Source of the DNA: Fibrobacter sp. UWR2
GTDB lineage: Bacteria > Fibrobacterota > Fibrobacteria > Fibrobacterales > Fibrobacteraceae
Assembly: GCF_002210285.1 (NCBI RefSeq)
Contig: NZ_MWQE01000002.1
Coordinates: forward strand, 1-64,000
Reading direction: 5' to 3'
Length of the DNA stretch: 64,000 nucleotides
The position numbers were made by a program, and so were the translations under genes. Position 1 is the stretch's first letter; the number at the start of each line of letters is the position of its first letter. Positions 48,278 to 53,046 of the stretch are shown here, piece after piece. The notes below the pieces were generated by a model. The model saw only the letters and a list, made by a program, of their open reading frames with translations. It was not told where the DNA came from and ran no database searches.

Positions 48278-48332
48278 GCGCACAAAGATAGCATTTTTAG
48301 TTGGCAGAACTTAGAACTTAGAACTTAGAAAA

Positions 48333-48360
48333 GTCATTCTGGAGCGCAGCGATAGAATCT
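48333..48360 (+). repeat. GTCAT palindrome
   Basis: ATTCT (48336-48340) pairs with AGAAT (48354-48358); the loop ggagcgcagcgat is nearly identical to the copy at 54120, where the stem is ATCCT/AGGAT, i.e. a compensatory change. Confidence 0.7.
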
Positions 48361-48370
48361 TTTTATTATG

Positions 48371-48525
48371 AAAGGGGGAGGCTTCCCCCTCGTCAAAGCC
48401 TTGCCCCTTCTGCGTCATCCTGGAGCCATGAAATGGCGACGGGATCCATACATTTCATTCCACAGCGTGATAAGGGCAAGTCTTTGCCTACCCTCTCTCC
48501 TAGGAGGCTCCGCCCCCTAACACCC
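48371..48525 (+). repeat. Composite intergenic repeat, copy 1
   Basis: Order: AGGGGGA/TCCCCCT hairpin, then AAAGCCTTGCCC (48395-48406), a GTCAT palindrome, the near-inverse GGGCAAGTCTTT (48474-48485), 'gcctaccct', and 'ggctccgccccctaa'. The same order recurs at 53047-53155 in the same orientation, on the other side of the R-M/TA genes. Confidence 0.85.
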
Positions 48526-48636
48526 CCGAATGCACTTTTTCGACCCACTTTTGTGCGTTTGAATACACTTTTTCAAGGGAGTTTTGAAAAAGTGGGCGAT
48601 TTCAGGTGAAAATCGCCATTCGTGCTTGTGCGAATT

Positions 48637-48662
48637 GTCATGCCGGGCATGACCCGGCATCT
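48637..48662 (+). repeat. GTCAT palindrome with T-run
   Basis: ATGCCGGG (48640-48647), loop catga, CCCGGCAT (48653-48660), then ctcc and seven T. It could terminate incoming plus-strand transcription ahead of the structured region. Confidence 0.8.
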
Positions 48663-48703
48663 CCTTTTTTTATTCCTAATTATGTATATTTTTCATTGAC
48701 ATA

Positions 48704-48997
48704 GCCCTGAACCGCAAGGTGAAGGGCGACCGGTTTTAGAGTAATTTGCTCTTATTCTCGCGTCCTTAAAACACGACCAAAGTTTTACGCAATAAGAATA
48801 AGGCTTACAACGCACACCCGAATTAGGGCGTGGGTCGTTTGCTTGTTTTGCGTAGGGCTTCTTGGTCGTTGCCTAAGGACGAACAGGTATTCGATACCAC
48901 GCTTTTTTTGTTTTATCGAATATTGAGGGTAGGAACAAAGACAAACGTTTTTGCTCCCGTTCTTGCGTCCTTAAAATACGACCAAATTTTTAACGCA
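48704..48997 (+). ncRNA. Candidate structured RNA region of unknown class
   Basis: No coding potential, but dense structure. GCCCT-ga-ACC-gcaa-GGT-ga-AGGGC (48704-48727) is a symmetric hairpin with a GNRA-type tetraloop. Hairpin A (48751-48802) has an 8 bp outer stem CTTATTCT/AGAATAAG, then GCGT/ACGC and AAAC/GTTT around loop ACGACCAAA. Hairpin C (48964-48997) repeats this: TGCGT/ACGCA, AAAA/TTTT, same loop. Segment B (48862-48881) reads TTGGTCGT-tgcc-TAAGGACG, complementary to loop plus 5' arm of both A and C. GGTAT-tcg-ATACC (48886-48898) followed closely by seven T may be a weak terminator. No known RNA family was recognised; strand is inferred from the downstream gene. Confidence 0.55.
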
Positions 48998-49017
48998 GCA
49001 GGAATTGGACAAATGGG

Positions 49018-49038
49018 ACTCACCTCATTGGGGTGAGT
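49018..49038. repeat. Hairpin ACTCACC/GGTGAGT
   Basis: A 7 bp perfect stem between the structured region and the methyltransferase leader; followed by 'tctattt'. It may be a terminator or processing site. Confidence 0.5.
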
Positions 49039-49069
49039 TCTATTTGGGCATTCTCTTGTCGAAGCATGT

Positions 49070-49130
49070 CGATGTTTCGTGAACAGAAGTGAAAACAGAA
49101 CATTTCACCTGTTCCGTAGGAACATCGAGG
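49070..49130 (+). promoter_or_regulatory. Leader stem-loop overlapping the methyltransferase ribosome-binding site
   Basis: Nested stems: CGATGTT (49070-49076) with AACATCG (49121-49127); GAACAG (49081-49086) with CTGTTC (49109-49114); GTGAAA (49089-49094) with TTTCAC (49103-49108). The outer stem runs into the gagg Shine-Dalgarno (49127-49130) four bases before the ATG at 49135. Confidence 0.6.
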
Positions 49131-49134
49131 CATT

Positions 49135-50361
49135 ATGGCTTCTGGCAAGAATGCACTTCGTGTGCTTTCTCTGTTCTCCGGCTGCGGAGGACTCGATCTT
49201 GGGCTTGAGGGTGGCTTTACCACTCTCAAGAAATCTGTTAATGAAAAAATCCATCCGGATTGGATTGAAGAAAATATTAACCGAAATTTTATTCGCTTGA
49301 ATAAGAATCGTTTTCAGACCGTTTTCGCAAATGACATCCTGCCCTGTGCGCAAAAGGCGTGGAACCACTTCTTCGGCAACAGAAAGAAAATCGAAGGGAT
49401 ATACAGAGTAGAATCTATTGTAGATCTAGTCAAGAAGTGTAAGTCGGGCGAATTCCAATTTCCTAAAAATATTGACGTTGTTACAGGCGGTTTTCCTTGT
49501 CAGGACTTCTCAGTTGCAGGAAAGCGGCTTGGTTTTGATTCTGCCAAAAGCCACAATGGTGTAAACGAAGAACACGCTGAAAATGAATCAAGGGGCACCC
49601 TGTATCTCTGGATGAAACAGGTCATCGAAATCGTCAAACCAAAAGTTTTTATCGCTGAAAACGTAAAAGGTCTTGTTTCATTAGGCGATGCCAAGAAGAT
49701 TATTGAAACCGACTTCCGCAACATCGACAAAGGGTATTGCGTTGTTGATGCCCAAGTTTTGAAGGCGTGGGAATACGGCGTTCCTCAAAGTCGCGAGCGT
49801 GTTGTTTTCATAGGCATTTCTAGAAAATACGCTAATCCCAAAATTCTTGCCGACATAGAAAAGAACTCCGAAAAATCGCCGTATTATCCATATCCGATAA
49901 AGACGCATGGAGAGGAACTTCAAAAAATCGTCACCTGCAAGGATGCCTTCGTTGGATTAAAGGAGCCTGACGAAAGTTCCGATGCCGCACAACAAGCTTA
50001 TTCAAAAGCGAAATACTATGGTAAAATGCAGGGCAGTTCTGAAATTGATATGGACGGTGTCGGTCCGACAATCCGAAGCGAACATCATGGCAATATCGAA
50101 TATCGTCGGTTGAGCGAAGAACATGGCGGAAAGATTTCATCTGAATTGACCAAAGGGTTGCGAGAGCGTCGTTTGAGTGTTCGTGAATGCGCAAGAATTC
50201 AGACATTCCCCGATGATTATGAATTCATCTTTAACGACGGAACCAATAAAGTCAATTCATCTGATGCCTATAAAGTTATTGGAAATGCGGTCCCGCCTTT
50301 GCTGGGATACTCTATTGGGAAAAGACTTGAATTTCTTTGGAATGATTTATTTGGGGAATAA
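49135..50361 (+). CDS. DNA (cytosine-5-)-methyltransferase
   Basis: Modification enzyme of a restriction-modification pair, 408 aa. Ordered m5C motifs: I 'LSLFSGCGGLDLGLEGG', IV 'TGGFPCQDFSVAGKR' with catalytic Cys122, VI 'FIAENVKGL', VIII 'GVPQSRERVVFIG', IX 'RRLSVRECARIQTFPDDYEF', X 'YKVIGNAVPP'. The target-recognition region (about 270-345) is not assignable to a sequence. The gene is visibly more AT-rich at third positions than its neighbours, as expected for a transferred gene. The endonuclease begins 2 bp after its stop. Expression may be checked by the leader stem-loop. Confidence 0.95.
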   Translation: MASGKNALRVLSLFSGCGGLDLGLEGGFTTLKKSVNEKIHPDWIEENINRNFIRLNKNRFQTVFANDILPCAQKAWNHFFGNRKKIEGIYRVESIVDLVKKCKSGEFQFPKNIDVVTGGFPCQDFSVAGKRLGFDSAKSHNGVNEEHAENESRGTLYLWMKQVIEIVKPKVFIAENVKGLVSLGDAKKIIETDFRNIDKGYCVVDAQVLKAWEYGVPQSRERVVFIGISRKYANPKILADIEKNSEKSPYYPYPIKTHGEELQKIVTCKDAFVGLKEPDESSDAAQQAYSKAKYYGKMQGSSEIDMDGVGPTIRSEHHGNIEYRRLSEEHGGKISSELTKGLRERRLSVRECARIQTFPDDYEFIFNDGTNKVNSSDAYKVIGNAVPPLLGYSIGKRLEFLWNDLFGE

Positions 50362-50363
50362 AC

Positions 50364-51455
50364 ATGTCTATTTCCGTTGGAGAAAAACTGGTCTGCGATC
50401 CAAGGACGTTGGAGAACTTCAATAATCTGCTCTCGTGTGCGAAAGAACGGCTGCAGAGGGATTCTTCCCGATTTGCTAGCGGCGATTTTTGGAAAATCTT
50501 TGAAGGCGAAGTTTGCAAAGCTCTAGACAAGTCAAAAGAATTTGTAGGGGTTCCCGATTGGAATATCGAATATATTGGCGGCCATAAATTTCCTGATATT
50601 GTCGCAAGAATCAACAAAAATCAAGCCTTGGGCATAGAAGTCAAAACACTCAGTACTCGAAATGATTCATGGAAGGTAATGGGCGGCAGCATTATGGAAT
50701 CTACAAGGATCCCCAATGTCAGCAGAATCCATGTATTTTGCGGCAAGCAAAACCCTTTTGAAATTAAATATCGTTCGTTTGAAGATTGCGTGGAGGACGT
50801 TGCCGTTACGCATAGTCCTCGCTATATGTTGGATATGAATGTTGCAAGAGAAAAGTCTCTTTTTAAGAGATTGGGTAAATCATATGATGAAATCCGTCAT
50901 ATGAAAAATCCTTTTGATGCGTTCAGAACCTATATGGTCGATTCTAAAATGAAGCGTAACGCAACAAGTGAAGGCGAAGACTTATGGTGGTTTAGCCCAA
51001 ATATTGATGAATTTTCAAAACTTGATTTGGCGGAAGAAAAAATCGCAAGTTCACTTGTTAACAATAAGGTGAAATTTTGGAATAAGCTTTCGGCAGATGA
51101 AAAACAAGAGATAAAAATTGAAATGCTTATCGCCTCTCCGAGTGTTTTGGAGGGCGATTATGAATACGCTTGTCAATGGTTGTTGCAGAGGAAAGGCGTT
51201 GTTTGTCCATCATTCCGCGATAATTTTTCCGCTGGCGGTCGCACTGTCGTAAATGGAGTGAACGTTCCGCAGGTAATAGGCAAAATTAACGAATGGAAAG
51301 CTGATATTACCAAAGCATTCAATAAAAAGGAACTCCCACAACAACATTTTGAACATTGGAAAACAAGAGTCTTGTCTATCGGCAAGTTTTCAAGTGTAGA
51401 AAAAGATGTCCTCAAAAAAATTGTAGCCGATATAGGGAAAGGGATTTCTCGTTAA
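50364..51455 (+). CDS. PD-(D/E)xK restriction endonuclease, type II
   Basis: Partner endonuclease, 363 aa. The catalytic core reads 'KFPDIVARINKNQALGIEVKT': Asp78, Glu92 and Lys94 form a PD-(D/E)xK site. The rest ('GGSIMESTRIPNVSRIHVFCGKQNPFE', 'EDCVEDVAVTHSPRYMLDM', a C-terminal 'KSFNKKELPQQHF'-like region) resembles type II enzymes that accompany m5C methylases, but I do not recognise a named isoschizomer family. It lies 2 bp after the methyltransferase in the same AT-rich composition and must be co-expressed with it. Confidence 0.85.
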   Translation: MSISVGEKLVCDPRTLENFNNLLSCAKERLQRDSSRFASGDFWKIFEGEVCKALDKSKEFVGVPDWNIEYIGGHKFPDIVARINKNQALGIEVKTLSTRNDSWKVMGGSIMESTRIPNVSRIHVFCGKQNPFEIKYRSFEDCVEDVAVTHSPRYMLDMNVAREKSLFKRLGKSYDEIRHMKNPFDAFRTYMVDSKMKRNATSEGEDLWWFSPNIDEFSKLDLAEEKIASSLVNNKVKFWNKLSADEKQEIKIEMLIASPSVLEGDYEYACQWLLQRKGVVCPSFRDNFSAGGRTVVNGVNVPQVIGKINEWKADITKAFNKKELPQQHFEHWKTRVLSIGKFSSVEKDVLKKIVADIGKGISR

Positions 51456-51530
51456 AAGAGCATTCGTAAATGTCCGAGTTCCTTCCTGATCAAACGTTTT
51501 CCATCGTTTCCAAATCGCTGAGTTCGTGTA

Positions 51531-51599: not shown

Positions 51600-52610
51600 C
51601 TAGACTTCTAGCCCTGCCTGCATCATGTATTTTTGCGCAAATGCGTTTGCCTCGTCGTCCTTCTGCTGGTTCTTGTTGCCGTAATAGACGTTCTTGATGA
51701 AGATGTCCTTCTTGCCGTGGAGCACGATGTGGCCGAGCTCGTGGAAGAACGTGAACCAGAACGCATTGCGGTCTTTGAAACGGTCGTGCAGCTGAATGAC
51801 GGGGATGTCCTTGTACCAGCGGGCCATGCCATGAATCGGCGCCGACTTGAAGTTCTGCGCGTAGAGCACCTTGATTCCGAGCTTTGCGCCCAGTTCCTGC
51901 AACTTGTGCATGCCGTCGTCAATGAAATCTTCGCCCACCTTCGGCTTGGGCAAGGCCTTCTTGCGGCGTAAATCTTCCCATGCGGCAACATCGTTTTTGG
52001 CCAGTTCCACAAATTGCGGCATCGCCTTCTTGATGGCGGAACGCACCTTCTTGTCGTTCTGCTTTTCCATCTTGATTTCGTCGGCGAGGATTTCGCCGCG
52101 GCGCATCCACACGGAGGCCGCGTACGGGTCTTCGGTTTCGGCCAGCGAAATGCGGAAGGCCACCTTCAGACGGTTCTTGTAATAGTAATTTTCCCACGCC
52201 TTGGGGCTTGCCACCCCGAAGAACTTGAGGATGGGCGATACGCCGTCTTCTTTGTTGTTGAAGTCCTTGATCCATGTGCGCGGATTGAGTTCACTGATAG
52301 GGAAGAACTTGCGCCAACCGGCCTGGTTCTTGACGGCTTCTTTGACCTGAAGTCTCATAAGTTCTTCTTCGTACCCTTTTTGGGCGTTAAGCCAGAAACT
52401 GACCGGGATTCCGGTGGCGTAATCCAGGGAATGCGCGACTTCGATTGTTATGCAGCACTTGCCCTTCAAGATTTCATTCACCGTTTTGGGCGTGTAGCCG
52501 ATACGAGCTGCAAAATCATTGACGTCGATACCCATTTCTTGAATCTTTTCTTCAAGAAACGCACCCGGCGGGGTAATTCCCCAAACGATAGCATCCTTAT
52601 TCTTCTGCAT
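51600..52610 (-). CDS. higA: HigA-type HTH antitoxin fused to an ImmA/IrrE metallopeptidase
   Basis: A 336 aa protein. Residues about 10-75 are an XRE helix-turn-helix of the HigA/VapI type ('PPGAFLEEKIQEMGIDVNDFAARIGYTPKTVNEILKGK'); about 235-336 are an ImmA/IrrE domain with 'FFHELGHIVLHG' (HExxH-like zinc site HELGH, about residue 288) and the distal Glu in 'DDEANAFAQKYM'. It begins 11 bp after the higB-like toxin gene, in toxin-first order as in higBA. The fused protease could control its own turnover or cleave a repressor. A good Shine-Dalgarno (agagg) precedes the ATG. Confidence 0.87.
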   Translation of the reverse strand: MQKNKDAIVWGITPPGAFLEEKIQEMGIDVNDFAARIGYTPKTVNEILKGKCCITIEVAHSLDYATGIPVSFWLNAQKGYEEELMRLQVKEAVKNQAGWRKFFPISELNPRTWIKDFNNKEDGVSPILKFFGVASPKAWENYYYKNRLKVAFRISLAETEDPYAASVWMRRGEILADEIKMEKQNDKKVRSAIKKAMPQFVELAKNDVAAWEDLRRKKALPKPKVGEDFIDDGMHKLQELGAKLGIKVLYAQNFKSAPIHGMARWYKDIPVIQLHDRFKDRNAFWFTFFHELGHIVLHGKKDIFIKNVYYGNKNQQKDDEANAFAQKYMMQAGLEV

Positions 52611-52621
52611 GTTAACCTCTG

Positions 52622-52936
52622 CTAATGATAATCCACGATTTCCATAATTTCGGCATTGTGCCGTTCTGCCCAGATAACAAATTCGTTCGGTTCTGCGCCT
52701 TTGATTATAAGACGATAAGGCTGGTCAAGACTACAGGCCCATTGACCCTTGCGGTTGCCCACAAGTTCGTGGAAATTTCCGGGCACAGTTTTCAGAATTT
52801 CAAAGTTCTCGGCATATTTGATTGCCTTTATTCGCAAATTGTAGCACGCCGCCCGTTTTTTACCCATACGTCGTAAGGCGAATGCTTCGTCTAGCGCGCA
52901 CAACTCTAGTTCCTTGTTCCTATATTCAATTTTCAC
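52622..52936 (-). CDS. higB: HigB-like RelE/ParE-superfamily toxin
   Basis: A 104 aa protein from the GTG at 52936, which is preceded by ggagg; a TTG at 52957 is a weaker start. 'AACYNLRIKAIKYAENFEILKTVPGNFHELVGNRKGQWACSLDQPYRLII' with the closing 'IVDYH' matches HigB-type ribosome-dependent mRNA interferases. It is followed by the HigA-type regulator. The pair stands back to back with the R-M genes across a convergent junction, as an addiction-type neighbour. Confidence 0.85.
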   Translation of the reverse strand: MKIEYRNKELELCALDEAFALRRMGKKRAACYNLRIKAIKYAENFEILKTVPGNFHELVGNRKGQWACSLDQPYRLIIKGAEPNEFVIWAERHNAEIMEIVDYH

Positions 52937-53046
52937 AAAACCTCCACCGTTAATCAAAAGTCCTGTTTTCTAATATAATAAAAACTTTTATGAAACGCAA
53001 GGGGTGTCTTGTTTTTATAAAAATAGGGTCGATTTTATTGATAACT

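Follow-up and report, generated by a model that had tools for sequence, protein, structure and literature searches.

In plasmid pT181-type attenuators, a terminator is set against an antiterminator within the repC leader, and the antisense RNA is a separate countertranscript. The control of restriction-modification (R-M) systems has so far been explained mainly by C proteins and by antisense promoters. The loop complementarity of pT181 attenuators can be made orthogonal between copies (orthogonal pT181 attenuators are the subject of PMC3753616), and the EcoRI and Eco29kI R-M systems are subject to antisense-RNA control from reverse promoters located inside the R gene (reviewed in PMC3874152).

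We analysed a window (the whole stretch of DNA under study) of 64,000 nucleotides from Fibrobacter sp. UWR2 (contig NZ_MWQE01000002.1, positions 1 to 64,000), in which a type II R-M operon is preceded by a structured leader (Table 1). This leader resembles that of pT181 repC in opposing a terminator to an antiterminator and in the orthogonal complementarity of its loops; however, its antisense segment B, together with C in the leaders of type II R-M genes, lies within the same transcript and not in a separate countertranscript, and the leader is chromosomal, occurs in many copies per genome and precedes R-M genes. With riboswitches, T-boxes and ribosomal-protein leaders it shares mutually exclusive terminator and antiterminator folds in the 5′ UTR, but it has neither an Rfam-matched aptamer nor a common metabolic target, and its pairing segments are hypervariable although self-complementary. 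As with the antisense control of EcoRI and Eco29kI, type II R-M would be restrained at the RNA level; there, the reverse promoters are in the R gene, whereas in Fibrobacter a sense-strand leader lies before the operon and serves several R-M types.

Table 1. Features of the leader RNA and of the downstream R-M cassette (window positions)
Feature	Position	Strand	Remarks
-10-like promoter box (TATATTT), putative	48685..48691	+	Putative start ~48697-48699
Whole leader RNA / 5′ UTR of type II R-M operon	48697..49134	+	Covariance model R1 + C unit + hairpin
P1 hairpin	48704..48727	+	GCAA loop in window copy; 7/8 pairs with double changes
P2 hairpin (GAG...CTC)	48738..48752	+	
A unit	48751..48802	+	s1, h1 arm, kissing loop, s2
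s1; s2 (arms of A unit)	48751-48758; 48795-48802		
Barcode helix h1 arm; kissing loop (A unit)	48761-48768; 48773-48781		
P4 hairpin	48811..48834	+	3′ arm overlaps 5′ arm of terminator T1
Terminator T1, 5′ arm	48828..48837	+	Stem paired in 100% of cells, 29 copies
s3 (CTTGTT)	48842..48847	+	Partner s2 in one fold, s4 (48882-48887) in the other
B	48862..48881	+	Antisense to both A and C
Intrinsic terminator T1, 3′ arm and U-tract	48892..48909	+	
C, second copy of A unit, 3′ of T1	48960..49004 (approx.)	+	
17-bp hairpin after C, then poor U-tract	49010..49046	+	
C5-cytosine DNA methyltransferase (M)	49135..50361	+	PF00145 E 1.6e-53; PADLOC MTase_II
Type II restriction endonuclease (R)	50364..51455	+	PADLOC REase_II E 1.1e-21
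Portable cassette: promoter, leader, M, R	48676..51456	+	Homology to other chromosomal places

The first-pass annotation of this locus had described two hairpins, A and C, with the same arm start and loop, and a segment B antisense to both. Direct reading of the sequence bears this out: A carries GCGTCCTTAAAA at 48760-48771 and the loop ACGACCAAA at 48773-48781, C carries the same two stretches at 48965-48976 and 48978-48986, and the stems differ as had been described, with AAAC/GTTT in A and AAAA/TTTT in C. Overall, A and C form an 86% direct repeat over 43 nt, and B is 80% complementary to each of them over 20 nt. The elements are ordered P1, P2, s1, A, s2, P4, s3, B, s4 and T1 with its U-tract, and long variants of 250–320 nt have an enlarged P4 and, for the most part, no P1. 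The upstream hairpin with a GNRA-type loop that had been reported is indeed present in the window as P1, but its GNRA loop is not conserved, most relatives having GAAU. P1 covaries but is missing in long variants (L119, L129 and others), and is dispensable. A 356-nt region folds on this strand with −139 kcal/mol, while its shuffled versions average −93.4 (z −8.0; 0/100 shuffles as good), and the opposite strand is likewise more stable than its shuffles (z −5.8); the z-score and the covariation described below rule out chance repeats.

Comparison of 67 distinct upstream flanks, otherwise mostly unrelated, revealed a sole conserved feature, an AT-rich box ending in TT ca. 7 nt 5′ of GACATAG. The fixed distance of this -10-like box from the first conserved bases suggests that transcription starts there, and the box would be the promoter of the leader. 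Neither this box nor terminator T1, with its 5′ arm at 48828-48837, had been noticed in the first-pass annotation. At the other end, the hairpin that follows C in the window is a possible second terminator or spacer, which a crude terminator scan did not detect as a terminator; the same scan detected terminators after C in 15 of the 26 copies with C, the window not among them, and does not support a universal second terminator.

Judged from sequence, the leader is a previously undescribed structured RNA family centred on the Fibrobacterota, and thus a larger finding than was first noted. When 80 genomes of the genus Fibrobacter were searched at the DNA level, 60 gave matches. A covariance model, R1, built from 29 aligned copies, recovered the RNA in 79 of the 80, and in all 40 of good quality, with 1 to 18 copies each and in most cases more than one; its match in the window, at 48696-48909, scores 130.7 bits (E 4.7e-30), the window copy being itself among the 29 model sequences. 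The highest count per genome, 26 copies under deeper scoring, corresponds to genome G139. Other genera also carry the leader RNA (91 of 168 genomes and 6 of 41 genera of the phylum). In a wider scan, an exact core pattern retrieved 97 stretches from 84,980 species, and among the matches listed (80 of the 97) all belong to Fibrobacter, Fibrobacteraceae or Fibrobacterales except three MAG contigs labelled Bacteroidales or Gastranaerophilales, one of which scores, weakly, with the model; these contigs may be mis-binned or transferred.

The first-pass annotation knew of no family with this layout, and indeed the whole library of Rfam release 15 gave no family above its gathering score at the locus, and only two tRNAs in the window, while permissive Rfam scans of the locus and six relatives returned chance-level matches only. 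A known RNA family was thus rejected for want of any Rfam match, and we found no description of the leader RNA in the literature. A phage-borne RNA was likewise discarded, since none turned up when 2.9 million viral contigs were scanned for the core motif and since the leader is absent from the one viral contig that contains a close relative of the window M gene (78% identity). In this predicted viral contig, IMGVR_UViG_3300002597_000004 (L333), the M relative is followed by an ORF where R would be. Weak, full-length second matches to the model adjoin the leader in L119 and L134 (in both, 3′ of T1) and in L126 (397-750), suggesting tandem or duplicated leader modules.

The first genes downstream of 110 copies fall into 36 clusters, the largest comprising C5 methyltransferases, HsdM, type III Mod and type IIG enzymes; others include EcoRI-type, D12, MmeI and Eco57I enzymes, HsdR, a Gabija-like helicase, JukA and NERD. 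The leader is common to type I, II, IIG and III R-M systems. In the genome that contains the window, it is carried by both strong N6-methyltransferase genes and by one of the two C5 methyltransferases. An R-M gene comes first in 41 of 84 copies, in a hand count of part of the copies of each of nine well-sampled genomes, so that a location before R-M or defence genes, which the first-pass annotation had put forward as a point to check, is true of about half of the copies, not of all. Non-R-M first genes include Fib_succ_major lipoproteins and other secreted proteins, DUF4417, EndoU, TerB-DnaJ and AAA/DUF4143. We observed no metabolic theme shared by the targets (R-M of several types, helicases, DUF4417, lipoproteins and others), and there was no reverse transcriptase gene, as would go with a retron or DRT ncRNA, among the first downstream gene families.

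Leaders preceding secreted or lipoprotein genes form a sub-group (L117, L118, L121, L123-L125, L182, L185, L198, L199, L207 and L213). Several genomes contain paired cassettes (L038-L044; e.g. L039 4587-6600), in which a leader with a DUF4417-like gene and two small ORFs is followed ca. 1.8 kb later by a second leader with an R-M gene. A CUCC...GGAG hairpin occurs after T1 in 16 of 124 UTRs, against 0.7 expected from shuffles (e.g. L113, L114, L123, L124), hinting at a second, translational layer in which the ribosome-binding site could be hidden.

The aligned copies have the complementarity for two folds. The A:B fold consists of three A:B helices, s2:s3 and P4, and the terminator fold of s1:s2, s3:s4 and T1, with B in the T1 loop; both use the same alignment columns and, consequently, cannot coexist. 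In counts that ignore relatedness, and with shuffle tests that related copies inflate, 94.8% of cells are paired in the A:B fold, with 26 pairs in which both partners change and a covariation score of 0.403 versus 0.160 for shuffles (0/500), on an alignment (A1) that served both to derive and to test this fold; the terminator fold has 95.8% of paired cells, 17 pairs with double changes and a score of 0.252 versus 0.168 (0/500). For these reasons the covariation is strong, but not formal proof. Slid controls lowered the paired cells to 35–46% (A:B fold) and 38–57% (T1 fold). One T1 pair is illustrative: among 102 distinct copies it is C-G in 74, U-A in 23, U-G in 5 and C-A in none. A U-tract follows T1 in 29 of the 29 aligned copies, and copies with T1 are in a 5′ leader, with a gene downstream. 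Mutually exclusive folds in a structured RNA had been anticipated by the first-pass annotation, although as a choice between A:B and C:B; the main alternative is not only this one, but that between A:B and an intrinsic terminator, and the leader is hence best read as a transcription attenuator.

Predictions on nascent RNAs of increasing length indicate that s1:s2 would form first (probability ~0.95 before B exists) and would then be displaced by A:B; in the window, s1:s2 has a probability of 0.85 in the nascent RNA ending at 48805. At the end of T1, the window RNA is predicted to favour the A:B fold by ca. 12 kcal/mol (−81.0 versus −68.8 kcal/mol for the terminator fold), using window-specific pairs because energies with all the alignment pairs enforced are unreliable for misaligned rows such as that of the window. 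Because A:B wins at equilibrium, read-through seems to be the default state, and for termination A would have to be held away from B by a kinetic or bound factor.

The two partners of the A:B fold, loop included, differ almost completely between copies and yet remain complementary. Examples of A/B loops are CUACCAC/GUGGUAG, CUUCGAC/GUCGAAG and UCUGGUAA/UUACCAGA, and a distant family of the phylum has UCUGCAAC/GUUGCAG. In homologous loci the layout of A, B and C is retained, and compensatory changes preserve the complementarity of A and of C to B, the loss of which would have counted against the first-pass annotation. Across 84 copies taken from ten genomes, self A:B duplexes have a mean energy of −30.4 kcal/mol, compared with −12.9 for non-self duplexes, in which A and B come from separate copies that differ in cargo, and self is the best partner in 79 of the 84. 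Among these 84 copies, non-self values are alike within and between genomes, with no sign that codes avoid each other within a genome; there is, therefore, no evidence of active divergence, and the specificity may be a simple outcome of drift with compensation.

Both folds, their covariation, the gene context and the match of C to B can be read in the sequences; we infer the promoter, attenuation and the direction of control. Our preferred reading, which we consider probable, is that the 5′ leader RNA acts in cis and regulates its operon through transcription attenuation, with the A:B fold as antiterminator. Transcription would begin at the first conserved base, and the s1-A-s2 hairpin would be the first to form. 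Once B is made, A would pair with it through the three helices, with s2:s3 formed and P4 closed; the closure of P4 and A:B would hide the 5′ arm of T1, allowing the polymerase to continue into the genes. If A is kept from B, s1:s2 would remain closed, s3:s4 and T1 would form with B in the loop, and transcription would stop. The A:B sequences would act as a copy-specific code by which each leader pairs with itself. If this is true, a genus-wide RNA family governs many accessory operons, half of them R-M, in plant-fibre degraders of the herbivore gut, and the leader provides a testable RNA mechanism by which mobile R-M cassettes might control dangerous enzymes. Likewise, naturally orthogonal, self-matching attenuators could be useful parts for the design of RNA circuits, and the leaders are relevant to genetic tools for Fibrobacter, restriction being a likely barrier there.

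It is possible, if on the unlikely side, that the leader is of the riboswitch type, with a metabolite or an RNA-binding protein stabilising s1:s2 or P4, and with C exerting a second-stage effect in cis, on translation or on a later terminator. The conservation of s1, s2, P4 and the terminator arms in sequence, beyond pairing, would fit such a sensor, as would the further hairpins that follow C in the copies read; however, each of s1 to s4 needs more than one partner, which by itself can fix the sequence, P1 is dispensable, and the target genes are unrelated, unlike those of most metabolite riboswitches. This reading is compatible with attenuation by A:B, from which it differs in the input only.

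The C of the window has an alignment score of 55, compared with at most 19 for shuffles; C is present in 26 of 143 copies, with a bimodal distribution of presence, and mostly lies ca. 40–60 nt after T1. Nearly all the C-bearing copies precede type II R-M genes: C occurs in the copies with a C5 methyltransferase in 15 of 15 cases in a first set and in 5 of 6 in a second, and the other genes behind it are an EcoRI-type methyltransferase, Tsp45I-type endonucleases, an N6/N4 methyltransferase, an Eco57I-family enzyme and, in one case, a hydrolase. Conversely, C is absent from all type I, IIG (ISP or MmeI) and typical type III leaders. The self C:B duplex averages −29.0 kcal/mol, compared with −15.9 for non-self, and is nearly as good as A:B (−31.8); since related copies have codes in common, C pairs best with its own B in only 13 of 22 distinct cases. 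By the time C is transcribed, the T1 decision has been taken, so that C can have no effect on T1 in cis and could only act in trans or in later steps. Speculatively, in the leaders of type II R-M genes C would exist in read-through mRNA only and, from a finished mRNA, might take the B of a nascent transcript in trans, freeing T1 and limiting that operon alone; any sensed signal is equally speculative. The complete RNA-only circuit, with operon-specific feedback of C on B, release of T1 and capped expression, and with codes that keep circuits independent, is a tentative proposal that we rate as rather unlikely, but it would give R-M systems an RNA equivalent of their protein C regulators.

The unit might instead be a stand-alone, trans-acting small RNA, the product being the ~210-nt terminated transcript, and the downstream genes having their own promoters. 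Indeed, the conserved unit is very stable, with its own promoter-like box and its own terminator. We nevertheless find this quite unlikely, because almost everywhere the leader is in the same orientation directly 5′ of a gene, with the start codon often 40–110 nt from T1, and the copies read by eye revealed no promoter-like box between T1 and the genes; besides, P4 keeps the terminator arms hideable, which is needless for a simple sRNA, and C lies beyond T1 and yet tracks A and B.

The cassette of leader and genes is portable, and its repeats could be recombination or integration sites for accessory cassettes, RNA folding being secondary. Homology to other chromosomal places starts at 48664-48678 or at 48724-48735, that is, at the -10 box and near the RNA start, or just after P1, and in L052 it ends at 51456. 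In G043 (L227) the site is empty, the sequence that matches the window up to 48300 nearly meeting that which matches it from 51601 onwards, and in G015 the same site holds a leader followed by a NERD-nuclease gene; moreover, there are tandem cassettes 1.8–2 kb apart. However, A, B and P4 vary between copies, and compensatory changes that maintain A:B and T1, U-G wobbles included, fit an RNA and not a DNA site, which makes this explanation very unlikely. Finally, attenuation by translation of a short leader ORF that chooses the fold was rejected as scarcely credible, since, although 51 ORFs with 8 or more codons begin within RNA positions 20–39 of the leaders, largely at an AUG in the P1 loop, the P1 of the window has no AUG, long variants lack P1, and neither a leader ORF, a start codon nor a peptide is conserved across variants.

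The window stretch 48284-48660, together with that upstream of a miaB-like gene in L220-L228, is a variable spot in several genomes, filled with short repeats (CATGCCGGGCATGACCCGGCA and similar). On the other side, window positions 51600-52957 contain, on the minus strand and flanking the cassette site, an HTH/IrrE-type peptidase gene and a small gene without a Pfam match that, from reading it, we take to be HigB-like; these two genes likely constitute a toxin-antitoxin pair.
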